A model generated the notes under the pieces. That model worked only from the letters and a program-made list of their open reading frames with translations, ran no database searches and was not told where the DNA came from. From Planctomycetota bacterium (GTDB lineage: Bacteria; Planctomycetota; Phycisphaerae; Phycisphaerales; SM1A02): a stretch of DNA of 38,659 nt. Location: NCBI GenBank assembly GCA_016873255.1, contig VGXR01000024.1, forward strand, positions 1-38,659. The letters are read 5' to 3'. Below are positions 5,778 to 26,754 of the stretch, in pieces. Numbering within the stretch: the first letter of the stretch is position 1; each line of letters begins with the position of its first letter. The position numbers and the translations under genes are program-made.

Positions 5778-6101
5778 ATGCACGTCACCATCAGCGCAAA
5801 GCACATGGACCTCACGCAGCCAATACGCGACTACGTGGAGCGGAAGATGGCGAAGCTCCCGCACTTCTTCAACCGGCTGCAGGAGATCCGGGTCATCATC
5901 GAGCGGATCCCCAACGGCTACCACGTGGAGGTGGTCAGCGACGTCGAGCACCACCGCGACTTCGTGGCCAACAGCAACGACCGCGACCTCTACGCGTGCA
6001 TCGACCTGGTGACCGACCGCGCCGTGCGGCAGCTGCACGAGTGGAAGGAGCGCGTCCGCGGCGCCAGAAAGCACCTCCGGCAGGGGCGCAGGCGCGGCTG
6101 A
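5778..6101 (+). CDS. hpf: Ribosome hibernation promoting factor, short form
   Basis: The 107-residue protein is an HPF/RaiA (sigma-54 modulation) family member: MHVTISAKHMDLTQPIRDYV at the start, then the RVIIER strand and a basic C-terminus (RGARKHLRQGRRRG). It binds the decoding region of the 30S subunit in slow growth and silences ribosomes. It lacks the C-terminal dimerisation domain of long HPF, so it is the short type. GGAGG lies 12 nt before the ATG. Its position just ahead of PTS EIIA and HPr genes mirrors the proteobacterial rpoN-hpf-ptsN neighbourhood, although rpoN is absent here. Confidence 0.93.
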   Translation: MHVTISAKHMDLTQPIRDYVERKMAKLPHFFNRLQEIRVIIERIPNGYHVEVVSDVEHHRDFVANSNDRDLYACIDLVTDRAVRQLHEWKERVRGARKHLRQGRRRG

Positions 6102-6146
6102 CGCCGCCCGCCGGCGCACCCGCCATCCTGTAACCTCACGCGTCGT

Positions 6147-6158
6147 CGGCTGCAGCCG
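6147..6158. repeat. 12-bp perfect palindrome ahead of ptsN
   Basis: CGGCTGCAGCCG in the 97-nt gap between hpf and ptsN is its own reverse complement. A TAACCT (6130-6135) just upstream could be a -10 box. The palindrome could be an operator or a small hairpin; there is no T-run that would make it a terminator. Confidence 0.3.
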
Positions 6159-6198
6159 GCGGCCGTCAGCGCTATCGCCCCAATCGGATCCAGAGAAC

Positions 6199-6675
6199 AT
6201 GAAGCTCCGCGACATCGTCGTCGAGAAGGCCATCATCGCCCCGCTGAAGTCGACCAAGCGCGACGAGGCCATCCGCGAGCTCGTGGAGGGCCTGGCCGCC
6301 CACGGCGCGGTCAAGCCGGCGCTGGCGGACGAGCTGGCGAAGGCGGTGGTGAAGCGCGAGAAGCGCGGGTCGACGGGTTTCGGCCACGGCGTGGCGGCCC
6401 CGCACGTGAAGACCCCCGACGTGCAGCGGGTGTTCGCCGCCGTGGGAATCGCGCCGGGCGGCATCGAGTTCCATGCGCTCGACAAGCAGCCCGTGCACGT
6501 GGTGTTCCTGCTGCTCTCGCCGGAGGACCGGCCGGAGGAGCACATCGACGCCATGGAGTGCGTGTTCGGCGTGCTCACCCAGGACAAGTTCCGGCGCTTC
6601 CTGCGCCAGGCGAAGACCCCGGCCGAGGTGTGGGGCCTCCTCGAGGAGGCGGACTCCGCCTCGCAGCCCCGCTGA
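6199..6675 (+). CDS. ptsN: PTS EIIA domain protein (PtsN/fructose type)
   Basis: This single-domain protein of 158 residues belongs to the fructose/nitrogen EIIA family. The phosphorylatable histidine is His69 in GHGVAAPH, preceded by the family hallmark REKRGSTGFG. VVFLLLSPED and the C-terminal helix with FRRFLRQAKT complete the fold. No EIIB or EIIC membrane component is nearby, so a regulatory role as in PTS-Ntr is more likely than sugar uptake. The gene is 3 nt upstream of the HPr gene and clearly cotranscribed with it. A purine-rich CAGAGAA sequence about 3 nt before the ATG may serve as ribosome binding site. Confidence 0.9.
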   Translation: MKLRDIVVEKAIIAPLKSTKRDEAIRELVEGLAAHGAVKPALADELAKAVVKREKRGSTGFGHGVAAPHVKTPDVQRVFAAVGIAPGGIEFHALDKQPVHVVFLLLSPEDRPEEHIDAMECVFGVLTQDKFRRFLRQAKTPAEVWGLLEEADSASQPR

Positions 6676-6678
6676 CCG

Positions 6679-6951
6679 GTGCCGAGCGCGAGAACCACCA
6701 TCCTGAACTCGCTCGGGCTGCACGCGCGGCCGGCGATGGCGTTCGTGGACGCGGCCGGCGCGTTCGCAGCCGACGTGCGGGTGCGGCGCGCCGACGGCGA
6801 CGAGGTGGTGGACGGCAAGAGCATCATGCAGATGCTGCTGCTGGCGGCCACGCAGGGAACGGAGCTGGAGATCACCTGCGAAGGCGAGGGCGCGGACGTC
6901 GCGCTGGCCACGCTGGTGGGCCTGGTGCAGCGCAAGTTCGACGAGGAGTGA
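6679..6951 (+). CDS. HPr family phosphocarrier protein
   Basis: The 90-residue protein has the HPr active-site motif GLHARPA with His15 in the exact canonical position. It also has a regulatory-site motif DGKSIMQM, with Ser48 equivalent to Ser46 of Gram-positive HPr. It could therefore be phosphorylated both by PTS enzyme I at His and by an HPr kinase at Ser; neither enzyme is encoded in the window. The start is GTG at 6679, only 3 nt after the ptsN stop, which indicates translational coupling. It would hand phosphate to the adjacent EIIA. Whether it acts in sugar transport or as the nitrogen-type NPr cannot be told from sequence alone. Confidence 0.93.
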   Translation: MPSARTTILNSLGLHARPAMAFVDAAGAFAADVRVRRADGDEVVDGKSIMQMLLLAATQGTELEITCEGEGADVALATLVGLVQRKFDEE

Positions 6952-6958
6952 CCTTCCC

Positions 6959-7981
6959 ATGGCGGAGCAGGCGCAGGAACGCGTGACCATCGTCGGCGAC
7001 GGCCAGATGGGCGTCGTGATGGCGGCCATGCTCGCCGAGCGCGGCGTGCCCGCCACCGTGTGGGGCCCGTTTCCCGAGGCCATCCGTGCGCTGGCGGCAT
7101 CGCGCCGCTCGCCGAGGCTGCCGGGGCTTGCGCTGCCGGCCGCGATCCGGTTCGAGCCGGACGCGCGCACCGCGCTCGCGGACGCGACGCTCGCGGTCAA
7201 CGCGGTGCCCACGCAGTTCGTGCGCGCCGCATGGAAGGACGCCGCCGCGCACCTCGCGGCCGGCGTGCCGGTGGTGAGCGTGACAAAGGGCATCGAGGAC
7301 GGCACGCTGCTCAGGCCGAGCGAGGTGATCGCGCAGGCCGTGCCGCAGGCTGGCGGCGCGCGGCGGGTGGCGGTGCTGAGCGGGCCGACCATCGCGGCCG
7401 AGCTTGCCGCGCGGCTCCCGGCCACGATGGTGAGCGCGAGCGCCGACGCCGAACTCGCCGAGCGCGTCCAGCGCACCTTCTCGCTGCCGTGGCTTCGCAT
7501 CTACACCAACCACGACGTGGTGGGCGTGGAGATCGCCGGCGCCGCCAAGAACGTGGTGGCGCTGGCGGCGGGCATGGTGGACGGGCTCGGCCTGGGCTCG
7601 AACGCCAAGAGCGCGCTGCTTGCGCGCGGGCTGGCCGAGATCGTGCGCCTCGGCACCGCGCTCGGGGCGCGGCCGGAGACCTTCTTCGGGATCGCCGGCG
7701 TCGGCGACCTCGCCACCACCTGCTTCAGCCCCGAGGGGCGCAACCGCTCGTGCGGCGAGGCCATCGGCCGCGGCGAGTCGCTCGCGTCCTACCTTGCACG
7801 CACCGACAGCGTGGTGGAGGGCGTGGCCACGTCGCATGCCCTGCTTGCGCTGGCGTCGCGCCACGGCGTGGACATGCCGATCGTGCGCGCGGTGGAGTCC
7901 ATCCTCTTCCACGGCAAGACCCCGGCCGAGGCCATCCGCGACCTCATGGGCCGCGAGGCGCGCGCGGAGCGCGTGGGGTAG
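6959..7981 (+). CDS. gpsA: NAD(P)-dependent glycerol-3-phosphate dehydrogenase
   Basis: The 340-residue product has the GpsA layout. An N-terminal Rossmann fold carries VTIVGDGQMG. The signatures VSVTKGIEDGTL and VAVLSGPTIAAELA follow. The C-terminal catalytic domain has AAKNVVALAAGMVDGLGLG, with the conserved Lys, and GVGDLATTCFS with GRNRSCGEAIGRG. It reduces dihydroxyacetone phosphate to sn-glycerol-3-phosphate for phospholipid synthesis in the cytoplasm. The Gly-rich loop reads GDGQMG rather than the commoner GAGxWG, a tolerated variation. GAGGAG about 10 nt before the ATG at 6959 serves as ribosome binding site, partly inside the HPr stop region, so it belongs to the hpf-ptsN-HPr run. 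Confidence 0.95.
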   Translation: MAEQAQERVTIVGDGQMGVVMAAMLAERGVPATVWGPFPEAIRALAASRRSPRLPGLALPAAIRFEPDARTALADATLAVNAVPTQFVRAAWKDAAAHLAAGVPVVSVTKGIEDGTLLRPSEVIAQAVPQAGGARRVAVLSGPTIAAELAARLPATMVSASADAELAERVQRTFSLPWLRIYTNHDVVGVEIAGAAKNVVALAAGMVDGLGLGSNAKSALLARGLAEIVRLGTALGARPETFFGIAGVGDLATTCFSPEGRNRSCGEAIGRGESLASYLARTDSVVEGVATSHALLALASRHGVDMPIVRAVESILFHGKTPAEAIRDLMGREARAERVG

Positions 7982-8031: not shown

Positions 8032-10074
8032 ATGAGCACCGCCCCCGTCGCCGGGATGGATCCCGCCGAACCGTCGTCACGACCCGCGTCCGCCGCCGAG
8101 GCACTTGCCTCGGGCGGGAGCCAGCTCGAGCGCCGCCTCGTGGTGGCCCTGTCGGGGGGCATGCTGCTCCTGGTGTCGTGGCTCGCATCGGCACTGTTCG
8201 GGTTCGCGGAGAACGTCACCCAGGTCCCCGCGGCGATCGGCGCGATCGTGGTGGCCACGCCCCTCTTCGCGGGCGCGGTGCGCGAGCTGCGCGAGGGCCG
8301 GCCCGGCGGCAACGCGCTGGCGAGCCTCGCGGTGCTCGCCGCGATGGCCAACAACTTCTTCCTGCAGGCCGGGTTCCTCGCGTTCTTCCTCTGGCTTGCC
8401 GAGCTGGTGCTCAGCCGCACGGCGTGGGGTGCGCAGCGCGCCATCCGCGAGCTGGTGGAGCTGACCCCCGACGAGGCCCGCCTGGTCGGCGAGGACGGCG
8501 CGGAGCGGCAGGTGCCGCTCGCGCAGGTCCGCACGGGCATGACCGTGCGCGTCCGTCCCGGCGAGAACCTGCCGGTCGACGGCACGGTGACCGCGGGCGC
8601 AAGCTCCATCAACCAGGCGTCGCTCACGGGCGAGAGCGTTCCCGTGGAGGCGCAGGCGGGCACGCAGGTCTACGCGGGCACGGCGAACATCACCGGCCAG
8701 CTCGACATCCTCGTGACCGCGGTCGCGGGGCAGACCACCATCGGCAAGGTCGAGAACCTGATCCGCGAGGCGGAGAGGTCGAAGACCGCGCGGCAGGAAC
8801 TCATCGAGAAGCTGTCCAACTACTACGTGCCGGTGGTGCTGATGGTGGCTGGCCTCGTGTGGTTCTTCACGTCGAAGAGCTCGGACCCCGCCGTGCGCGA
8901 CGCCGCCGCGGTGCGCGCCATCACGGTGCTCGTGGTCACCACGCCCGGCGCGCTCCTGATCGCCTACCCCACCGCGATGGTGGCCGCGTTCGCCGCGGCC
9001 GCGCGCCTCGGCATCATGGTCAAGCAGACAAGCACGCTCGAGGCGGCCGGGGCGGTCGACACCGTGGTGATGGACAAGACCGGGACCCTCACGACCGGCA
9101 AGTTCGCCGTCAGCCGCCTGGTGCCCGCGGAGGGCGTCGACGGCGCGGCGCTGCTGCAGGCCGCCGCGGATGCCGAGCAGAGCTCGAACCACCCGCTCGC
9201 CACCAGCATCATGGAGACGGCGGCCCGCGCGCGGCTCGCGCCCGCGACCGTCAGCGCGTACCGCGAGGTGCCGGGCCGCGGCGTGCAGGCGACCGTCGCG
9301 TCGGGCACCGTGTTCGCCGGGCGCGGCATGTGGATCGCGGAGCTCAACCCCGCGGCCGCCGCGCAGGTGAAGGCCGTCGAGGAGAAGCTCGAGGGCATGA
9401 GCGGCGTGCACGTCATGATCGGCGACCGCTACCTCGGCGCCGTGGGCCTCGAGGACAAGCTGCGCCGCAACGCGGCCGAGACCGTGGCTGAGCTGCGCCA
9501 GCTCGGCGTGCGGCGCGTGGTGATCTTCACGGGCGACCGCCTCGGCGTGGCCAAGCGCGTCGGCGAGGCGGTGGGCGTCGACGCCATCGAGGCCGAGTGC
9601 CTGCCCGAGGAGAAGCACGAGGAGCTGAAGTACCTGATCCGCAAGGGAAGCCGCACGCTGGTGGTCGGCGACGGCATCAACGACGGCCCCATCCTCGCGA
9701 GCGCCGACGTCGGCGTGGCCATGGGACTCTCCGGCAGCGACATCGCCACCAACAGCGCGGGCGTCGCGCTGATGAACGACGACCTGCGCAGCATCCCGTT
9801 CCTCCTGGAGCTCGCGCGCAAGGCGAAGGGCATCGTGGCCGTGAACATCGGCGCCAGCCTGCTGCTTGCGCTCGTGGGCCTGGCGCTTGCGGCCACGGGC
9901 AAGATCGACATCTGGATCACGCCCTTCTACCAGGCCGCGGCGTACGTCTTCGTCATCGCCAACAGCCTGCGCCTCGTGCGCTTCGGCGAGGACTTCGCCG
10001 CCGCCGAGGAGCTGCGCCGCGCGCAGGAGGCGCTCGCCGTCTCCAAGCCAGTGCGCGCCGCCCAGCGCGCGTGA
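8032..10074 (+). CDS. P1B-like heavy-metal P-type ATPase with TPG in place of the CPC motif
   Basis: This 680-residue ATPase has all the machinery parts: the actuator TGES motif (in NQASLTGESVPVEA), the phosphorylated Asp348 in DKTGTLT, the P1B-type nucleotide-domain motif NHPLA (His387-Pro388) and the hinge GDGIND at 546-551. It has no N-terminal metal-binding domain. The membrane metal site is odd. Where P1B pumps have CPC, SPC or TPC followed by AL, this one reads T304-P-G306 then ALLIAYP. The late helix that usually carries His and Ser residues reads FYQAAAYVFVIANSLRL. It therefore lacks the thiol and His ligands used by known Cu, Zn and Co pumps. Substrate unknown. Homology to P1B pumps is strong because of NHPLA and the NSLRL end. 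It begins 50 nt after gpsA. Confidence 0.88.
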   Translation: MSTAPVAGMDPAEPSSRPASAAEALASGGSQLERRLVVALSGGMLLLVSWLASALFGFAENVTQVPAAIGAIVVATPLFAGAVRELREGRPGGNALASLAVLAAMANNFFLQAGFLAFFLWLAELVLSRTAWGAQRAIRELVELTPDEARLVGEDGAERQVPLAQVRTGMTVRVRPGENLPVDGTVTAGASSINQASLTGESVPVEAQAGTQVYAGTANITGQLDILVTAVAGQTTIGKVENLIREAERSKTARQELIEKLSNYYVPVVLMVAGLVWFFTSKSSDPAVRDAAAVRAITVLVVTTPGALLIAYPTAMVAAFAAAARLGIMVKQTSTLEAAGAVDTVVMDKTGTLTTGKFAVSRLVPAEGVDGAALLQAAADAEQSSNHPLATSIMETAARARLAPATVSAYREVPGRGVQATVASGTVFAGRGMWIAELNPAAAAQVKAVEEKLEGMSGVHVMIGDRYLGAVGLEDKLRRNAAETVAELRQLGVRRVVIFTGDRLGVAKRVGEAVGVDAIEAECLPEEKHEELKYLIRKGSRTLVVGDGINDGPILASADVGVAMGLSGSDIATNSAGVALMNDDLRSIPFLLELARKAKGIVAVNIGASLLLALVGLALAATGKIDIWITPFYQAAAYVFVIANSLRLVRFGEDFAAAEELRRAQEALAVSKPVRAAQRA

Positions 10075-10173: not shown

Positions 10174-10246
10174 CCCGAGGAGCGGCGTGGCCACGCGGGA
10201 GGCGATCGGTGCGGCTGGCATGCGCGGAACATCGCGCGCGCGGCGC

Positions 10247-10252
10247 TATTCT
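10247..10252 (+). promoter_or_regulatory. Possible -10 box of the first zinc-ribbon membrane protein gene
   Basis: TATTCT ends 7 nt before the ATG at 10260 and no Shine-Dalgarno sequence intervenes. The gene follows an apparent transcription-end element, so a fresh promoter is expected here. Confidence 0.35.
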
Positions 10253-10259
10253 CGAAACC

Positions 10260-11702
10260 ATGCACCGCTGCCCGCAGTGCGACTACGCCCTCGGCCCGAT
10301 CGCCGGCGTGCCGGCGGACCGCTTCGGCGCGTTCACCGCCGCGGTGCACTGCCCCGAGTGCGGGTTCGAGATCCCGGAGGGCGCGCGCATCCTCGTGGGC
10401 AGCGTGACCGCCGCCGGCGTGCAGCCGCTCACGCGCGGGCGCCGGCTGCGGCAGGTGGCATTGGCCGTGCTGCCCATGTTCTGGTTCCTGCAGTTCGGCG
10501 TGCGTGGCCTCTCCGAGGTCATCACGCAGGGACCGCGCAACCTCAGCGCGTGGAGCGTCCTGAAGGCCGCATCCCTCGTCGCGCCGTGCCTGGCGCTCTG
10601 GACGGCGTGGCTGTACTGGTCGCCGAAGCGGGGCGACGACGACGCCGGCGCGCTGGCATCGCGTGACATGCGGTGGCTCTGCACCCCGGGCGCGCTGTTC
10701 GTCTACCACGGCTCATCGGCGGAAACAGCGGACTCCCCCGGCGTGGACCTCGGGATGGCCGTCGGTGCACGAGGCCAGGTGCAGGTGGTCCGCAACAAGA
10801 GCCGCAGGAAGCGGATCGATGCCGACGACGTCGCCAGCATCCGGGTCTATGCCACCGAGGACACGGGCAAGAGGCGGAGGGCCGGCGACCGGATCGCCGC
10901 GCGCCTGGTGGCCAACACGTGGGAGCGCGGCCGCGACGGGCGCCGCAAGGACATGCATTCCTGGGAGATCAACATCGACACGGCGGCCGAGCCCGGCCCG
11001 CCGGGCACCGACCACGCCGCGGCTGCCATCGAGGCGGGCGATCGCATCGCAAACCTCGTGCGCCAGTCGCTGGGGCTCGCGCGACGCGCGGAGGCCCCGA
11101 CGGCCGTCGATGCGTTCGGCGCGGACGCGGCCGGCCCGCCGATCGTCATCGAGGGCTCGCGGTACGCACTACCGCCGCTGCACGCGCAGCGGCAAAGCAT
11201 CCTGATGGCGATGGTGCTGCCGTTCGTGTTCACCGCGGTGTGGCCAGTGCTGCTGGCGGTGAACTTCGTCCACCAAGTGGTCACGGCGAACGGTGCTGGC
11301 GGTCCGGTGTCGCCGATCATCGGCGGCGGCCTGCAGGCCGTCGCCTGGGTGGGGACGATGCTCTGCGTGGCCGTGATCGTCGGCTGTTGGATGCTGATGC
11401 GCCGGGCCCGGCGCCGGGATTCCACGCGCTGCCGCTGGGACGTGGCCGCCGGCGGCATCCGCGTCACCGAGACCGAGCGCGACCGCCGCGGCGATCCCCG
11501 GCGCGGGACGGTCTTGGACGTGCCCGCGTGGCAGGTCGCCGCCGTGGGCGCGGTCACCTCGAAGCGCCGCATCCGCCTCGTGGCCTCCGACAGCGTCCGC
11601 AAGGAACTGGCCTCTGTCACGCTCGACGAGATTCCCGAGGGCGGTGCCGAGGCGCTTGCAGCGCGGGTGCTTGCGCGGCTTCGGGCAGGCCAGCCCGGCT
11701 GA
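10260..11702 (+). CDS. Zinc-ribbon membrane protein, unknown family (paralogue A)
   Basis: The 480-residue protein begins with a zinc ribbon: Cys4-Pro-Gln-Cys7 and Cys31-Pro-Glu-Cys34, followed by FEIPEGARILVG. Four membrane segments are visible, around residues 62-82, 100-118, 315-340 and 358-380, in two hairpins. The long loop between them and the C-terminal 90 residues are soluble and look beta-rich; a PH-like fold is possible but not shown. I do not recognise the family. The head strongly resembles that of the protein encoded convergently at 11709-13325 (shared YAL, PADxxGAF, CPEC, EIPxGA, LVG). The ATG at 10260 is chosen because the ribbon begins immediately after it and a -10-like box precedes it. 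A role in envelope sensing or assembly is only a guess. Confidence 0.75.
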   Translation: MHRCPQCDYALGPIAGVPADRFGAFTAAVHCPECGFEIPEGARILVGSVTAAGVQPLTRGRRLRQVALAVLPMFWFLQFGVRGLSEVITQGPRNLSAWSVLKAASLVAPCLALWTAWLYWSPKRGDDDAGALASRDMRWLCTPGALFVYHGSSAETADSPGVDLGMAVGARGQVQVVRNKSRRKRIDADDVASIRVYATEDTGKRRRAGDRIAARLVANTWERGRDGRRKDMHSWEINIDTAAEPGPPGTDHAAAAIEAGDRIANLVRQSLGLARRAEAPTAVDAFGADAAGPPIVIEGSRYALPPLHAQRQSILMAMVLPFVFTAVWPVLLAVNFVHQVVTANGAGGPVSPIIGGGLQAVAWVGTMLCVAVIVGCWMLMRRARRRDSTRCRWDVAAGGIRVTETERDRRGDPRRGTVLDVPAWQVAAVGAVTSKRRIRLVASDSVRKELASVTLDEIPEGGAEALAARVLARLRAGQPG

Positions 11703-11708
11703 CCTGCC

Positions 11709-13317
11709 TCACTTCCCGAGCGCGGCGTTCAGCGCGGCGATCACCGCGTCCTCCTCCACCTCGGCGGGCAGCGGCACGTGAAGGAAGCGCTCGCCCACGA
11801 GCCCCAGTCCCCTGGCAGTGCCGCGCACGGAGAGCACCTCGGTCACAACGGGGATGGAGCTGTCGGGCGCGAACTGCTGGCCGAACGTGACGCGCGAGAT
11901 GCCGCGGACCGGCACGACGGTCTCGGGCGCGTCTCGCTTCCCGCGCCCGATGATCCGCAGGCGGCCTGGCTCCGCCACCCAGGTCTCGGTGCTGCGCTGG
12001 AACCGCGCGCGCGGGCGCGCGACGGGTCGCATCATCAGGCGCGTGCCGAAGACGATGGTCAGCGGCAGCCCCGCTATCGCGATCACCTGCACGACCACCG
12101 CGAGCACGGTCGACACGCGCGTCGCGAGAAGGCCGATCGAGGCCACGAGAAGCGCTGCGCTGACGATGATCCCGGCGATCAGCACCACGGTCCCCTTGCC
12201 GCCACGGTATTGCGCGCCCGATGCGTTGCGGAACCCGCTCACCACCACGGCTCCGGCAGGCACGGCCAAGCCGCACTGTGGACAGCGCACGTCGCGCGGG
12301 AGCGGCTCCCACCACGAGCCCTCGGGCACCATGCCGAGCGGGTGGCTGCAGCGCGGGCACGTCGCGGGTTCCGCGGGCGTGCCGCGGGTGATCGGCGCCG
12401 GCACTGCCAGTCGGTTGGGGTTGCCGTCGACGAGGGGCGTCAGCACCGCAGCGCCCATCTTCGACTCCACCTCGACCGGCACGGCAACGGGCGCGCGCCG
12501 GATCGTCTTCTCGAGCGCCCGGGCAAGCGCCTCGGGCCGCTGACCGCCCGGCATCAGCAGCCACATGGTGCCCGCGTGCCGCCCGTCGTTCGCCATGTTG
12601 CCCGTGTTGTTCGTGTAGTTGGCCGCCCAGAGCGTAAACGGCGTCACGAAGTCGATCGCGCCCGCCTCGCCGGCGCCCTTGCGGCGAAAGAGCGGGATGT
12701 GCCGGCGCCCGCGCACGTCGCGGATGTCGCCGCCGGCGATGCTGCGTGGCTTGGCATCGGACGCCGGCTCGCCGGACCAGAGGTGCACCGCGCCCGGCAC
12801 CACCATCGCACGGCGCATGCGGGCGCCGGCGCGTTCGCCGGAGGACCCGTCGGCGCGCCGCCAGCGCCGCCACGCGAAGTACCCGACGACCCCAAGTCCG
12901 ATGAGCGCGGGAAGCGCGCCGATTGCCCATCCCTGCGTCACGCTCATCGGGATGCCGCGGCGCAGCGTCGAGCCCTGGACCGTGCTGAGGACGAACATCG
13001 CGCCGAGGATCGCGAGCCACGGCCCGCCGATGAGCGTGGCCGCCCCGAGCACGATGGCGAGCACGCTGCGCGAACCGCTCGGGTCGACGACCTCGGCATT
13101 GGTCCCGCCCACGAGGCAGTGGGCGCCCGCGGGGATCTCGAGCGCGCACTCGGGGCAGCATGCCGTCTCCGAGAAAGCGCCAGAGGCGTCGGCGGGCGCG
13201 CCCGGCAATCCCGTCAGCGCATATGCGCAGCGCGGGCAGCGGCAGCGCGCCACCGGCCCGACCGCGCCCGGGGCGGGCGCCGCATCCGGGCCGGCCGCCG
13301 CGGCCGCGCGCACGGCG

Positions 13318-13325
<8 letters not shown>
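11709..13325 (-). CDS. Zinc-ribbon membrane protein, unknown family (paralogue B, two ribbons)
   Basis: The product, up to 538 residues, is a paralogue of the convergent gene ending 6 nt away. A first zinc ribbon (Cys30/Cys33 and Cys57/Cys60) carries the same PADxxGAF, CPEC and EIPAGA features. Hydrophobic segments follow, then a loop. In the middle is a second ribbon (TCPRCSHPL, later [12 protein letters not shown]), absent from paralogue A, then further membrane segments and a beta-rich C-terminus. The start is uncertain: TTG at 13325 overlaps the aldolase stop by 8 nt, and an in-frame GTG at 13313 is the next choice. The position right behind the aldolase gene suggests cotranscription with aldolase and mnmA. 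Function unknown. Confidence 0.72.
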
Positions 13326-21711: not shown

Positions 21712-23066
21712 GCCGCCGCGTCGGTCGCCACGTCGAACCCCGCGGGGAACACCCGCAGCACGCCCTCGCCGCCGTCGAGGGCCCACTGCCCGCCGGGCTC
21801 GTGCGCCACGCGGACGCGCGCGAGCGTGCTGCCGTCGGCAGCGAGCAGCGCGTACTCCCCCAGCACAAGCGCCTCCGGCATGCGCTGGAACGCCACCGCC
21901 GGGGCGCGGGCCTCGCAGAGCTGCGCGAGGAGGCGACGCACGCGCTCGCCGTCGGCCGCCACGCGCGCGCCGCCCGCGTCGGCGGTCCATGCATCGAGCG
22001 AGCGCTCCAGCGCGAACGCCCCGGCGCTGCCCGGGCCCTCGGCCGGTGTCCAGCGGATCCCGCGCACGTCGGCCGGAACCGCGTCGCTGCCGCGCGGATC
22101 GACGAAGAACGCAGGCGGCGGGAACATCGCGGCGAGCGCCTTGGGCCCAAGCTGCACCACCACCGGGCGGCCGCCCACGCGCGCGAAGCGCTCCGGCGCA
22201 CCCTCGGCGACCGGGATGCCGACGTCCACGAGGCCGGCCGGTGCATCGCCCGGGGCCGCGCCAGCGCGCCCGAGCACGACGCCGCGCTCCGGCTGCGAAA
22301 GCCCGAACGCCGCCAGGTCGTCGGGGCGATCGGCCGCGAAGGCGTCGGCCTCGGCGCGCGCGAGCGCCTCGAGGTACCCGCGCACCGCGTCCGCGTCGGC
22401 CCGGGACGCGACCGGCTCCAGGAGCGACCACTTCCCCGCCGCGCGCTGCAGCACGAGCCGCTGCCCGGGTGCCGCGCCGTAGCGCACCTCGATTCGCGCG
22501 ATGTCGGCGCCGCCCGGCTCGTGCAGGCGCCGCAGCCGCCACTGGCGCGGGTCGCCCTCCGCCGCCAGCGCATGGAGCGACGCATCGACGCTCGCGGCCT
22601 CGGCGCGCCCGGAAACGCGTGCCCATGCGCGCCCGGCCACGGTCCGGCGCCCGAGCTCGATGGACCGCTCGCCGCCGGGCCACGCAAGCCGCAGCACGCA
22701 CGCCGGAGGGTCGAGCCCGAGCGCGGTGCGTGCGGCCGGGTCGATCGACGCAGGGTCCACCGCACGCGAAGACGTGAGCGCGGCGGCGACGTCGATCACC
22801 TCGCGCACGGAGGCAGGATCCGCCGGATGCGCGAAGGGCTCGACCTGCTCCCAGCCCGAGGCGGTGCGCACGAAGACTGTCTCGGTCGCGTCGCGCGGGC
22901 GGACCTCCACGCGATCCACGCGCTCGAGGGGGATCTCGTCGACGGCGAAGAGCGGCGCCGTGGTGCGCGCTCCGCCTCGCGAGGAGGAGGGCGAACGCAG
23001 GGCAAGCCACGCACCGACCGTGACGGCGCACAGCAGCCCGAGGATGATGAGCGTGCGGTTGGTCAC
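21693..23066 (-). CDS. DUF4340-type protein of a Gld-like ABC cluster
   Basis: The 457-residue product has one N-terminal membrane anchor (TLIILGLLCAVTVGAWLAL). It then has repeated modules of the DUF4340 type, which read VDRVEVRPRD, then GWEQVEPF, SIELGRRTVAG and WSLLEPV. The bulk would lie outside the cytoplasmic membrane. Proteins of this type commonly follow GldA/F/G-like ABC genes, as here. The start is GTG at 23066, which overlaps the stop of the upstream permease gene by 4 nt (GTGA), so it is the last gene of a three-gene operon. The biochemical function is unknown. Confidence 0.8.
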   Translation of the reverse strand: MTNRTLIILGLLCAVTVGAWLALRSPSSSRGGARTTAPLFAVDEIPLERVDRVEVRPRDATETVFVRTASGWEQVEPFAHPADPASVREVIDVAAALTSSRAVDPASIDPAARTALGLDPPACVLRLAWPGGERSIELGRRTVAGRAWARVSGRAEAASVDASLHALAAEGDPRQWRLRRLHEPGGADIARIEVRYGAAPGQRLVLQRAAGKWSLLEPVASRADADAVRGYLEALARAEADAFAADRPDDLAAFGLSQPERGVVLGRAGAAPGDAPAGLVDVGIPVAEGAPERFARVGGRPVVVQLGPKALAAMFPPPAFFVDPRGSDAVPADVRGIRWTPAEGPGSAGAFALERSLDAWTADAGGARVAADGERVRRLLAQLCEARAPAVAFQRMPEALVLGEYALLAADGSTLARVRVAHEPGGQWALDGGEGVLRVFPAGFDVATDAAAYTGMR

Positions 23067-25810
23067 GTCCGCAGCCTCCTCCGCCCCACGACCACCGCGC
23101 CGGCCGCCGCCACGAGCGCAGGAACCAGCACGGCCTCGGCGATGCCGACGGAAAGCACCGCGCCGCGCGCAAGCCGCGGAAGCCGCGCCACCTCGCGCCC
23201 AGCGCCGCCGCCGGCAAGGTCCTCGCGGCCCGCGAGCCACGCCGCGGCGGCCACCAGCAGCTCGCGATTGCCCGGGTTGCGCAGCGCGACGCGCCCGCCG
23301 CCGAGCGGATCGGCGGCGTCCGCCACGGAGGTCGACATCCAGCCGGATGACCCCACCATCACCGTGCGCGCCGGGCGCCCGCCGTCCGAGGCCGACGTCT
23401 CCGACGAAAGCACCACCGGCACCGGCACGGCCACGCGCTTCGACGCGGGCGCCGAGAGCCGCGCACGAACATCTCGCCGCCAGTCGTCCTCCACCCACCG
23501 GTCGGCCGACGGCTCCACCACGGCCACCGCCTCGGTGCCGCCGGCGGTCGATGCAAGCGGCACCGGTCGGTCGAGCAGCACGCGCTGGCCATCGATGGCG
23601 CGACCGATCGCCGTCGACGCCTCTCCGCCGAGGAGCACCTGCGCGGTGCGGGTCTCCGCGCGCTCGGGGCCGACGGGAACCACCTCGAGGATGGTCCGCC
23701 CCGTCTCGGCACGCAGCCCGCGCGAGGAGAGCACTTCCGCCCACGGGTCCTGCTGCCCGAGGAGCGGGAGGAGGCTTGGCCCCACGGAGAGGAGCACCGG
23801 CTGCCCCTGCGCCACCAGCCGGCGCGCCGCCGACAGGAGCTCGCGCTCGCGGGGCGATTCGTCGGTCACGTCGCGGTCGGCAGGCGGGACCACGATCCAC
23901 ACCGTCGCGCGCCCGCCGGCAGCCGCCGGCTGCGCACCGTCGCCCGGCACCCACTCGCGCACCTCGAAGCGCGCGCTGCGCAGCGCGTCGGCCGCGGCCG
24001 CCAGGTCGCGGCGATCGGGAGAGGGGCGGAGCAACCCCGGCGGGCCGGAGTGCACGAACACGGCAAGCGGCGGAACGCCCGACACGAGCGCGCGCATCGC
24101 CGAGGCGATGGCCTGCTCGCCGCGGAACCGGCGGTCGAAGGCAATGGCGCCGCCGGCGCTTCCGGACACGAGCTGCCACCCCGGCACCGTGGCCACGCCA
24201 GGTGGCCCGATGACGACGGCGCAGTCCCCTGCCGCGAGCGCCGCACCCACCTCGGCGCCGTGCAGCCTCGGGAGGCGGTCGAGCGCATCCTGCGCGCGGC
24301 GGAGGTCCTGGGCCAGCGCAGCCATCTCGGCAGGCGCGGATGAAAGCCACGCCCTGAGCGCGCCGCCGGCATCGCCCCGCGCGGCGCGCTCGGAGAGCGT
24401 TCGCGATGCCGCCAGCAGTTCCTCGCCCCAGTGCTTGAGGTTGGCGGAGACCGCCGCGGCGGCCCGGGCCTCGGCGGGGAAGGGGCGCGCATCGCTGGCG
24501 GCGCGCAGCTCGGCAATGGAACGGTCGAAGGCCGGCTTCTGCGCGGCAAGCTGCAGGAATGCCGCGCGCAGCGCATCGAGGTCCTGCCTGCTCGGGTCGT
24601 CGGCCGGGAGCGCGGCCACCAGGTCCGCGAGGCTCGGCGCCTGCACGGAACCGAAGCGGGCCACGCGCGCGAAGGCCTCCAGCCCGCCGCGCAGCGCCGC
24701 GCCGTGCGCCGCGAGCGCGGCGGCATCGCGCGACTGCACCGCGTCGAGCACCGCCTCGTAGCGCGCGGCATCGGCGGGATCGGCGGGGTCGACGCGCATC
24801 GCGCCGATGCGCGCGCCGGCCGGCGCCGATTCGGCGAGCCGCGCGAGCACCTCGTCCACCTGCCGCGCGACGCCCGCGTCCGGCGATGCCAGCACCAGCG
24901 CAACGGTCCACTCGCCCGAGAGCCCGCCCACCAGCGCGCGCGTCGGCTCGGCAAGCGTGTAGGCGCGCGTCTTGGTCATGTCGGCGGAACGCCGCAGGCG
25001 CGGCAGGTCGGCGAGCGCCACGAACGCCGCGGCCGCGGCGGCCGCCAGCGCAAGCCCCGCCCCCACGCGCCGTCGCGACGCGATGCGGCCCGGCAGCGAG
25101 GGCCGCGCCGCGGCCACGGTGGCAGAGAGCAGGAACCACCCGCAGGTGGCGGCGAAGAACGCCGCGTTGCCGCTGTCGAGGAGCCCGAGCAGGAAGTCAT
25201 CGAGCCGGCGCAGCGGATCGACCGCGAACGCCACGAACGCCATCGATCCCGGCAGCACGCCGGGCGCGCTGCGCGCGAGCGCGATCCACGTGAGCCAGAC
25301 GAACACGGTCACCAGGTAGGCCGCCACCTGGTTGCCCACGAGCGCCGAGAAGAGGATGCCGGACGCCAGGTACGCGCCGCCCGCAAGCACCAGGCCCAGC
25401 ACCCCGGTGGCCGCCTCGAGGTAGTCGGGGCGCGCGAACCACTCGAGCGCGGCGAGCTGCGCGGCCACCGGGAGGGCGACCGTCACGGCAAGGAGCGCAA
25501 GCAGCGCCGCGAACTTGCCGAGGACGATGGCCGCGGTGCCTGCGGGCGACGCCGCGAGCGATGCCCACGTGCCGCTGCGCAGCTCCTCGACGATCGACCG
25601 CATCGAGAGCGCGGGCGCCACCAGCATCACCGCCCACCCGAGCGCGATGAACGTGCCCCGAAGCGTGGCCGGCGCCCCGCTGCGGAAGACGGCCACCGCG
25701 AACACCGTGCCGGCGAGCGCCGCGAACGCGGCCATCACGCTCCAGCCGAGCGCCGAGCCCAGCTGGATGCGCCACTCGCGGCGCGCGACGGCCAGCGCGC
25801 CCGCCATCAT
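23063..25810 (-). CDS. Fused ABC-2 permease and GldG-like auxiliary protein
   Basis: The 915-residue protein fuses two parts that are often separate. Residues 1 to about 260 are an ABC-2-type permease with six hydrophobic segments and the EELRSGTWASLAASP motif typical of GldF-like permeases. After another membrane helix (about residue 265-285), a long extracytoplasmic GldG-like domain follows, beginning with TKTRAYTLAEPTRALVGGL. It runs to a final membrane helix at the C-terminus (about 885-910). The start is ATG at 25810, overlapping the ATPase stop by 4 nt (ATGA). In Bacteroidetes GldFG takes part in gliding and secretion; in other phyla the role is unknown. The transported substrate cannot be predicted. 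Confidence 0.85.
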   Translation of the reverse strand: MMAGALAVARREWRIQLGSALGWSVMAAFAALAGTVFAVAVFRSGAPATLRGTFIALGWAVMLVAPALSMRSIVEELRSGTWASLAASPAGTAAIVLGKFAALLALLAVTVALPVAAQLAALEWFARPDYLEAATGVLGLVLAGGAYLASGILFSALVGNQVAAYLVTVFVWLTWIALARSAPGVLPGSMAFVAFAVDPLRRLDDFLLGLLDSGNAAFFAATCGWFLLSATVAAARPSLPGRIASRRRVGAGLALAAAAAAAFVALADLPRLRRSADMTKTRAYTLAEPTRALVGGLSGEWTVALVLASPDAGVARQVDEVLARLAESAPAGARIGAMRVDPADPADAARYEAVLDAVQSRDAAALAAHGAALRGGLEAFARVARFGSVQAPSLADLVAALPADDPSRQDLDALRAAFLQLAAQKPAFDRSIAELRAASDARPFPAEARAAAAVSANLKHWGEELLAASRTLSERAARGDAGGALRAWLSSAPAEMAALAQDLRRAQDALDRLPRLHGAEVGAALAAGDCAVVIGPPGVATVPGWQLVSGSAGGAIAFDRRFRGEQAIASAMRALVSGVPPLAVFVHSGPPGLLRPSPDRRDLAAAADALRSARFEVREWVPGDGAQPAAAGGRATVWIVVPPADRDVTDESPRERELLSAARRLVAQGQPVLLSVGPSLLPLLGQQDPWAEVLSSRGLRAETGRTILEVVPVGPERAETRTAQVLLGGEASTAIGRAIDGQRVLLDRPVPLASTAGGTEAVAVVEPSADRWVEDDWRRDVRARLSAPASKRVAVPVPVVLSSETSASDGGRPARTVMVGSSGWMSTSVADAADPLGGGRVALRNPGNRELLVAAAAWLAGREDLAGGGAGREVARLPRLARGAVLSVGIAEAVLVPALVAAAGAVVVGRRRLRT

Positions 25811-26754
25811 GGTGCCACCCCGCGCCGCGCGCGGACGATGCTCAGGAACGCGCCCTCGAGCGACGGTTCCTCGATGCGCACGCTGCGCGCGGGCGTGCCC
25901 GCGGCCACCAGCGCGCGCCCGGCCTCGGCGGCCGCCGCCGAGGCGTCGGCGCCGGGCGACAGCGAGAGCGCGCACTGCGTCCAGATGCCGTCGCGGCCCG
26001 AGTTGGATGCAAGGGCGACGCCGGGGATGCGCGCGAGCACCGCGGCCGGGTCGCCGGGGGCCTCCACCACCACGCGATGCACGCCGGCACCCAGTGCCCG
26101 CAGCTCCGCCATCGTGCCGTCGGCCACCACCCGGCCGCGGTCGATCAGCACGGCCCGGTCGCAGCTTGCCTCCACCTCGGCAAGCACGTGGCTCGAGAGA
26201 AGCACGGTGCACTCGCCGCCGAGGTCTCGGACCAGCGCGCGGAACTCCATCACCTGCTCGGGGTCGAGGCCCGAGGTGGGTTCGTCGAGCACCAGCACGC
26301 GCGGCGCGTGCACGATCGCCGCGGCCATCCCCGCGCGCTGCCGGTAGCCCTTGGAGAGCTGGCCGCACAGCCGGCGGCGCACGTCGAGCACCTGGCAGCG
26401 CGCAAGCGCGCGATCGACGGCCCCGGCGCGGGCGCGGCGCGGCACGCCGTAGAGCTCTGCCCGGAAGCGGACGAACTCCTCCACGGTGAGGTCCGGCTGC
26501 ACGGGGCTCTCCTCGGGGAGGTAGCCCACCGCGCGCCGCGCGTCGGCGGCATCGGCCTCCATCCGCATCCCGGCCACCGCCACGGCCCCCTCGTCGGGCG
26601 CCATCGCACCCACCACGATCCGGATGGTCGTGCTCTTGCCCGCGCCGTTGGGACCGAGGAAGCCGCACACGCTCCCGGCGGGCACGGCGAACGACACGCG
26701 ATCGACGGCGACGACGCGCCCGAACCGCTTGACGATGCCATCGGTCTCGATCAT
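25807..26754 (-). CDS. ABC transporter ATP-binding protein (GldA-like)
   Basis: The 315-residue ATPase has Walker A GPNGAGKST, Q-loop region GYLPEESPV, signature LSKGYRQR, Walker B VLVLDEPTSGLD and the switch histidine in LLSSHVLAEVE. The C-terminal extension of about 90 residues is of the kind seen in ABC-2 exporters. It would energise the fused permease encoded next, with which it shares a 4-nt overlap. The ATG at 26754 opens the operon; a TAGGAT box (complement of 26804-26809) lies about 50 nt upstream in the gap shared with the divergent PAS-GAF gene. The LSKGYRQR signature places it with the ABC-2/GldA/NatA type. Confidence 0.92.
   Translation of the reverse strand: MIETDGIVKRFGRVVAVDRVSFAVPAGSVCGFLGPNGAGKSTTIRIVVGAMAPDEGAVAVAGMRMEADAADARRAVGYLPEESPVQPDLTVEEFVRFRAELYGVPRRARAGAVDRALARCQVLDVRRRLCGQLSKGYRQRAGMAAAIVHAPRVLVLDEPTSGLDPEQVMEFRALVRDLGGECTVLLSSHVLAEVEASCDRAVLIDRGRVVADGTMAELRALGAGVHRVVVEAPGDPAAVLARIPGVALASNSGRDGIWTQCALSLSPGADASAAAAEAGRALVAAGTPARSVRIEEPSLEGAFLSIVRARRGVAP

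Follow-up and report, generated by a model that had tools for sequence, protein, structure and literature searches.

The specificity of P1B-type ATPases is commonly explained by the ligands of the CPx motif in membrane helix M4 and those of helix M6. The functional subgroups differ at these sites. For sCoaT (P1B-4), the accessible part of PMC8880997 names S325 and C327 in the SPC motif, suggests that H657 acts as a built-in counterion, and gives a role in release to E658 and E120; the same part gives an Asp in M6 as a mark of P1B-2 pumps (D714 in SsZntA). In AfCopA (P1B-1), mutating C380, C382 and the MxxSS motif of M6 impaired Cu binding, according to the accessible part of PMC9433437. In ZntA, replacing one Cys of the CPC motif by His or Ser abolished Pb binding and left Zn/Cd binding in place, as a passage of PMC9387928 states. 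An HN pair in the last helix is the mark of the poorly characterised P1B-6 pumps, and CtpC is called P1B-6-like in the accessible part of PMC9374683.

The window analysed here is the whole stretch of 38,659 nucleotides of a contig from a Planctomycetota bacterium. It encodes one pump of this descent whose membrane part differs at all of these sites. Judged by its sequence, this pump is a conserved, unusual, ligand-less offshoot of the P1B family. The most likely reading, tentatively held and a little short of an even chance, is that it is an active pump for a non-thiophilic cargo.

Identity and membrane site of the window protein

The following features were located in the window. The window's family was defined by at least 64% identity to the window protein and not by taxonomy.

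8032..10074, + strand: 680-aa P1B-type ATPase lacking transition-metal ligands in its membrane helices (open reading frame, profiles and model)
8032..8136, + strand: N-terminal tail, residues 1–35 (~35 aa), no Cys or His
8359..8460, + strand: helix M2, residues 110–143, with L127 at a place where Glu is usual in the other P1B pumps examined
8941..8949, + strand: T304-P305-G306, at the CPC position in M4
8965..8967, + strand: Y312 (Tyr 55 and His 28 in the window's family, elsewhere mostly Thr or Ser)
9073..9087, + strand: DKTGT phosphorylation motif, residues 348–352
9925..9945, + strand: M6 segment FYQAAAY, residues 632–638, placed by alignment

The catalytic motifs are intact: TGES 199, PTAM 313, DKTGT 348, NHPL 386, TGD 500 and GDGIND 546. 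The protein scored 503 bits with TIGR01525 (general heavy-metal P-type ATPase; cut-off 346.25) and 417.3 bits with TIGR01512 (cadmium family; cut-off 313.5), and stayed below the cut-off of the copper profile. The AlphaFold model (62 aligned sequences, mean pLDDT 83.9) has the P1B helix pattern, with two extra N-terminal helices of the MA/MB type (residues 21–54 and 60–87) ahead of M1. Its best structural match was AfCopA in the E1 state (PDB 7r0g; Z 31.2, rmsd 3.8 over 629 residues). Among the structural hits, the P1B pumps ranked above KdpB and other P-type pumps, whose matches were attributed to the common fold. The TIGR01525 match, the DKTG, TGES, TGD and GDGxND motifs, the HP of the N-domain and the MA/MB helices were thus all found. 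On these marks the window protein is P1B by descent, while its site matches no functional subgroup that was tested. Labels taken from profiles, e.g. 'heavy metal' or 'cadmium family' pump, may mislead for these proteins.

The only Cys is residue 523 and the three His are residues 387, 460 and 529, all in soluble domains. The membrane helices, as delimited in the model, contain neither Cys nor His. Of the transition-metal ligand set (M4 CPx and its M6 partner) nothing was found: M4 has T304-P-G306, and M6 has Q634 at the place of the His and Y638 at a place otherwise taken by Asp, Glu, Ser or Thr. The acidic residue of M2 is replaced by L127, and E124 lies one turn away. In the alignment, FYQAAAY falls on the M6 of the sister group, mostly H-x-x-S-S or a variant of it, and on HEGST and MSVSS of the same genome's own SPC and CPC pumps, respectively.

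Translation and alignment confirmed what the sequence-only reading had reported, namely intact P-type motifs with NHPL, TPG at the place of CPC, the late-helix FYQAAAY and no N-terminal metal-binding domain. That reading had also named a case that would overturn it: a shifted triad with a normal ligand set elsewhere in the helices. This was checked and ruled out. The stretch from the triad to DKTG is gap-free in 26/26 aligned rows, the M4 helix is broken at 303–305 in the predicted structure, and there is no Cys or His in the membrane.

Conservation of the TPG triad

The genus search covered 14 genomes, including that of the window. TPG was present in all ten with a readable M4 (L001, L004–L011 and L022), each with ACG as the codon for T304. 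Two of the remaining genomes had fragments that stop short of M4, and two (79% and 86% complete) had no close match. The dN/dS of the window gene against five genus members was 0.05–0.18. For three pairs at greater distance the values were 0.09, 0.14 and 0.31, with dS high or uneven.

The loss of motif residues is what would be expected of a degenerating gene or an assembly artefact. We consider this explanation extremely improbable: the triad recurs in 10/10 genomes, dN/dS is low and the open frame is intact. Hence, TPG is not a sequencing error, and the gene is not dying.

In the class-wide search (E-value cut-off 1e-105, at most four candidates evaluated in each genome), exactly one derived-type match per genome was found in 33/33 genomes of families f1, f2 and f4, with E-values of 1.6e-196 or better. 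Family f3 is a single genome with the triad CPG. Six genomes of f5 and f6 were read and had CPC in 7/7 loci; one f6 genome had no match at the 1e-105 cut-off. In a public genome scan, the best 80 of 552 loci were planctomycete or unplaced uncultured bacteria by title. Two pattern matches occurred in viral contigs, neither of them confirmed as a relative.

As far as these loci go, TPG is a mark of this genus only, and close relatives mostly have CPG. The M6 His is missing from the whole of the window's family and not from the genus alone.

Site series across the derived clade

The alignment comprised 147 loci and the window protein. The derived clade was taken as the rows from families f1–f4 (n=115), made up of the window's family (83) and other derived families (32). 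In 115/115 rows, the second Cys of CPC is replaced by Ser, Thr, Ala or Gly, and position 127 is Leu, Val or Phe throughout.

In the other derived families, the first residue of the triad is Cys in 28 and Val in 4, and the third is Ser (13), Ala (9), Gly (5) or Thr (5). Position 127 is Val in 17 and Leu in 15, position 634 is His in 27 and Gln in 5, and position 638 is mostly Asp (22), followed by Glu (5), Val (4) and Gly (1).

In the window's family, Gly306 is fixed (83/83). Position 304 is Cys in 71, Thr in 9 and Ala in 3 rows, and position 127 is Leu in 82 and Phe in 1. Position 634 is Gln in 52 and Tyr in 29, and position 638 is Tyr in 81/81 readable rows. Together with the sister group this gives a series of sites: CPC/Glu/His in the sister group, CP(S,T,A,G)/His/Asp, CPG with Gln or Tyr and Tyr, and TPG.

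Position 124 is Glu in 49, Asn in 25, Lys in 8 and Asp in 1 row of the window's family. As it is not fixed, no single replacement ligand is conserved. A proton pump working through a fixed membrane acid was also considered; with this variation at position 124 it is unsupported. Positions 124, 312 and 634 are Glu or Lys, Tyr and Gln in 49 and Asn, His and Tyr in 22 of the 81 readable rows. These combinations would fit a shared pocket, but they may reflect shared descent.

The N-terminal tail was scored in 110 of the 115 derived rows, with start codons guessed by script. A His-rich tail was found in 24 of the 27 rows that keep H634 and in 0 of the 83 scored rows without it, counts that come from related and hence not independent rows. 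The missing Cys/His tail thus goes together with the missing M6 His. A CC or CSH motif was present in 23 of the 24 His-rich tails. In four loci with CPG and both the His and the Asp of M6 (L023, L024, L025 and L026), the His-rich tail is long and contains CCEMH or CCELH; it is likely a metal-binding tail.

The series bears on a further explanation, in which the site was relaxed and not re-aimed. The pump would then still export divalent metals (e.g. Zn, Mn, Fe or Co) at low affinity through Glu124, Gln634, Tyr638 and backbone oxygens. Weak binding of a divalent metal by E124, Q634 and Y638 would still be conceivable. The nearest families mostly keep Cys304 (28/32), His634 (27/32), Asp or Glu at 638 (27/32) and the His-rich tail, which would suit a divalent-metal pump, and most of the window's family keeps Cys304. 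Moreover, ZntA mutants with one CPC Cys replaced by His or Ser retain Zn/Cd binding, according to a passage of PMC9387928. On the other side, the window's family lacks the His and the tail, the genus lacks the last Cys as well, and the genome has other P1B pumps. We regard low-affinity divalent-metal export as possible, if rather doubtful, and as the main rival of the preferred reading.

Trees and repeated losses

The trees were quick searches of 104 and 99 rows with SH-aLRT support only, and their long outgroup branches call for caution about long-branch effects. The class-level tree, built with the trait columns removed, included 44 of the 83 rows of the window's family, 28 of the 32 other derived rows, 26 sister rows and 6 references. 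Support in it was 99 for the derived clade, 99 for the window's family and 100 for the TPG genus, all starred. The suggestion that the pump may be a distinct subgroup was borne out: the window protein lies inside this well-supported derived clade, and all 115 rows lack both the second Cys of CPC and the Glu of M2.

The first Cys changed at least five times. One change lies in the sister group and four lie inside the derived clade (the TPG genus; L090; L089 with L133; the VPA genus). His634 was replaced at least three times: once in the window's family, once in the VPA genus and once in L146. Both the VPA genus and L146 have Gln there, the residue found in most of the window's family. The VPA genus (L027–L030) and L146 are nested in families that mostly have the His-rich tail and D638, and most likely lost both.

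In the window's family itself, the tail and D638 may have been lost or may never have been gained: only 6/26 class-level sister rows have a tail with four or more His.

Sister group and phylum-level relatives

The class-level sister rows (n=26) have CPC in 25 and APS in 1, with Glu127 and His634 in 26/26. The M2 Glu is likewise present in 6/6 reference pumps.

At the phylum level, 28 genomes had a match, and 20 of these were read. Their M4 triads were CPC (7), CPS (5), CPT (4), CPG (2), CPL (1) and TPC (1). M2 has Gln in place of Glu in 5 of the 20 rows, all five of them CPS. This CPS group (L179, L183, L184, L186 and L190) represents a second loss of the M2 Glu. L181 and L182 have CPG, with the M6 His changed to Tyr and the M2 Glu kept; they do not belong to the class and branch elsewhere in the tree. 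Further odd triads in related planctomycete pumps are APS in L178, TPC in L188 and CPL in L197.

His-Asn in M6 was found in 11/20 phylum-level rows, in 0/26 class-level sister rows and in 0/115 derived rows. In the phylum-level tree, the class-level and phylum-level rows jointly form the sister of the derived clade (support 100). By motif alone, the known kind nearest to the sister group would be P1B-6-like.

Conserved positions lost and kept

Six reference pumps were used: CopA and ZntA of E. coli, two plasmid pumps, and the SPC and CPC pumps of the same genome. Universal positions were those with 90% or more conservation among the sister rows that five or six of these references also share. 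This gave 94 positions, 19 in the membrane and 75 in soluble parts. A position was counted as kept at 90% or more and as lost under 10%.

The window's family keeps 13/19 membrane and 68/75 soluble universal positions. Three membrane positions (E127, R135 and C306) and four soluble ones (L329, A392, A552 and A554) are lost in it. The other derived families have lost only E127, C306 and A552. Of these three losses common to both groups, E127 and C306 belong to the metal path. The sequence changes, the placement in the tree and the conservation of the motor were observed directly.

A concentration of the change in the membrane was considered and dropped. Universal losses in the window's family were 3/19 in the membrane versus 4/75 in soluble parts (Fisher p 0.14), and losses of sister-conserved positions were 16/62 versus 32/149 (Fisher p 0.59); neither difference was significant.

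At residue 552, the derived pumps read GDGINDGP where the sister rows read GDGVNDAP, with the exception of L048 (26-row alignment).

Genomic neighbourhood

Upstream of the pump, the window contains genes for RaiA, PTS EIIA, HPr and GpsA in a row (5778–7981). The last of them is the upstream neighbour in much of the clade:

6959..7981, + strand: gpsA, NAD-dependent glycerol-3-phosphate dehydrogenase

Counting loci with at least 1 kb of flank, gpsA lies at most 700 bases upstream in 74/77 loci of the window's family (further off in 3) and in 22/31 other derived loci (absent in 8, further off in 1). It was upstream in 0/25 sister loci. The orientation of gpsA and the pump is mostly divergent across derived loci. 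Among four other genera of the family for which wide flanks could be read, raiA, ptsN and hpr are also near the pump in three (L034, L035 and L037) and not in the fourth (L036). Near the sister pumps (n=26), an SPFH/Band 7 or ABC-2-type membrane protein was seen in 17 to 19 loci and an ABC transporter ATPase in 14.

The product of gpsA feeds phospholipid synthesis, and the pairing, frequent in the derived clade and absent from the sister group, could point to a lipid or lipid precursor as the cargo. Yet the pairing also occurs in families that keep His634 and so does not track the loss of ligands, and the mostly divergent orientation speaks against it too. For this reason the pairing was not used to name the cargo, and we consider a lipid cargo read from it very improbable.

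KdpB energises KdpA, and the pump could similarly have given up transport, its ATPase cycle driving a partner protein or acting as a sensor. An intact motor in a protein whose membrane-site Cys and His ligands are all gone would suit such a role. However, 36 of the 62 sister-conserved membrane positions are kept in the window's family, and no membrane partner gene was seen beside the pump across families. The sole shared neighbour was gpsA, apart from two antisense ORF families overlapping it. A partner or sensor role is thus unlikely.

The same genome encodes further P1B pumps, one with SPC and one with CPC, and these could cover its ordinary metal export.

Two other observations were made in the window. 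At 10209–13325, a pair of related genes lies on opposite strands; both have a zinc-ribbon-like CxxC start, and neither matched a Pfam family. In the compared loci, similar genes were seen in the genus only. The region 22000–26000 has a GC content of 0.77 and an AT skew of 0.22–0.28, above the rest of the window.

Proposed mechanism and cargo

The reading we prefer, an active pump for a non-thiophilic cargo, would have a P-type ATPase of P1B descent that still works, with its transition-metal site dismantled and then rebuilt. A cytosolic cargo would bind at the M4 kink. Asp348 would be phosphorylated, and the cargo would be released outside on the change from E1P to E2P. The new site may consist of Thr304, Gly306, the backbone carbonyls of the kink, Gln634 and Tyr638 of M6, Glu124 of M2 and Tyr312. 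The cargo would be a hard cation or a small polar or organic compound rather than a thiophilic transition metal. As the site offers no thiolate, imidazole or histidine counterion, a thiophilic transition metal is most likely not what is carried. Counting against a rebuilt site, Cys is still present at position 304 in 71/83 rows of the window's family.

From the sequence data we infer that transport continues, which way it runs, what the site is made of and to which class the cargo belongs. The earlier proposal of another cargo or a new coordination site is reasonable given the ligand losses and would be the best one at present. A more specific version is that a P1B pump, widely kept as a single copy, left the transition metals altogether for a hard cation, small organic or lipid-related cargo within one planctomycete order, with the intermediates still extant. 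We put this forward as conceivable, with the balance tilting against it. If true, it would be a change of cargo class within P1B.

Comparison with known pumps

Searches centred on Planctomycetota yielded no well-characterised subgroup with TPG, and the literature, covered through titles and the openings of abstracts and thinly for subscription papers, yielded no TPG or ligand-less P1B pump.

The P1B-6 and P1B-6-like pumps, the latter with CtpC of mycobacteria, are tied to the sister group by motif alone: the sister group has the M6 His in the same place, partly as HN, the mark that PMC9374683 gives for P1B-6. A further mark of these pumps is a partner gene with DUF6110 or DUF1490. In contrast, the window protein has neither the M6 His nor HN (Q634-A635), and it lacks the M4 Cys and the M2 Glu.

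The best sequence match in the PDB was sCoaT (P1B-4, PDB 7qbz), and neither protein has a classical N-terminal metal-binding domain. At the places of S325, C327, H657 and E658 of sCoaT, the window protein has T304, G306, Q634 and A635, respectively. E120 falls on L127 in the multiple alignment (via the genome's own SPC pump) or on S128 in the pairwise alignment, neither of which is acidic. The P1B-4 marks, SPC and HEGxT in M6, are absent from the window protein, and the same genome has a separate pump with SPC and HEGST.

AfCopA (P1B-1, PDB 7r0g), the best structural match, has C380, C382 and MxxSS, all of which are missing from the window protein; the same goes for CPC with M6 MxxSS as the marks of P1B-1. 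E. coli ZntA (P1B-2) belongs to the same general family and has a comparable core, and its subgroup marks, CPC and an Asp in M6, are likewise not present.

As the window protein has none of the residues of sCoaT or AfCopA at the matching places, a soft-metal cargo appears unlikely. Set beside these pumps, the planctomycete lineage retains the P1B machine without the ligands by which specificity is commonly explained, and its natural variants make the cargo range of a ligand-free P1B scaffold directly testable.
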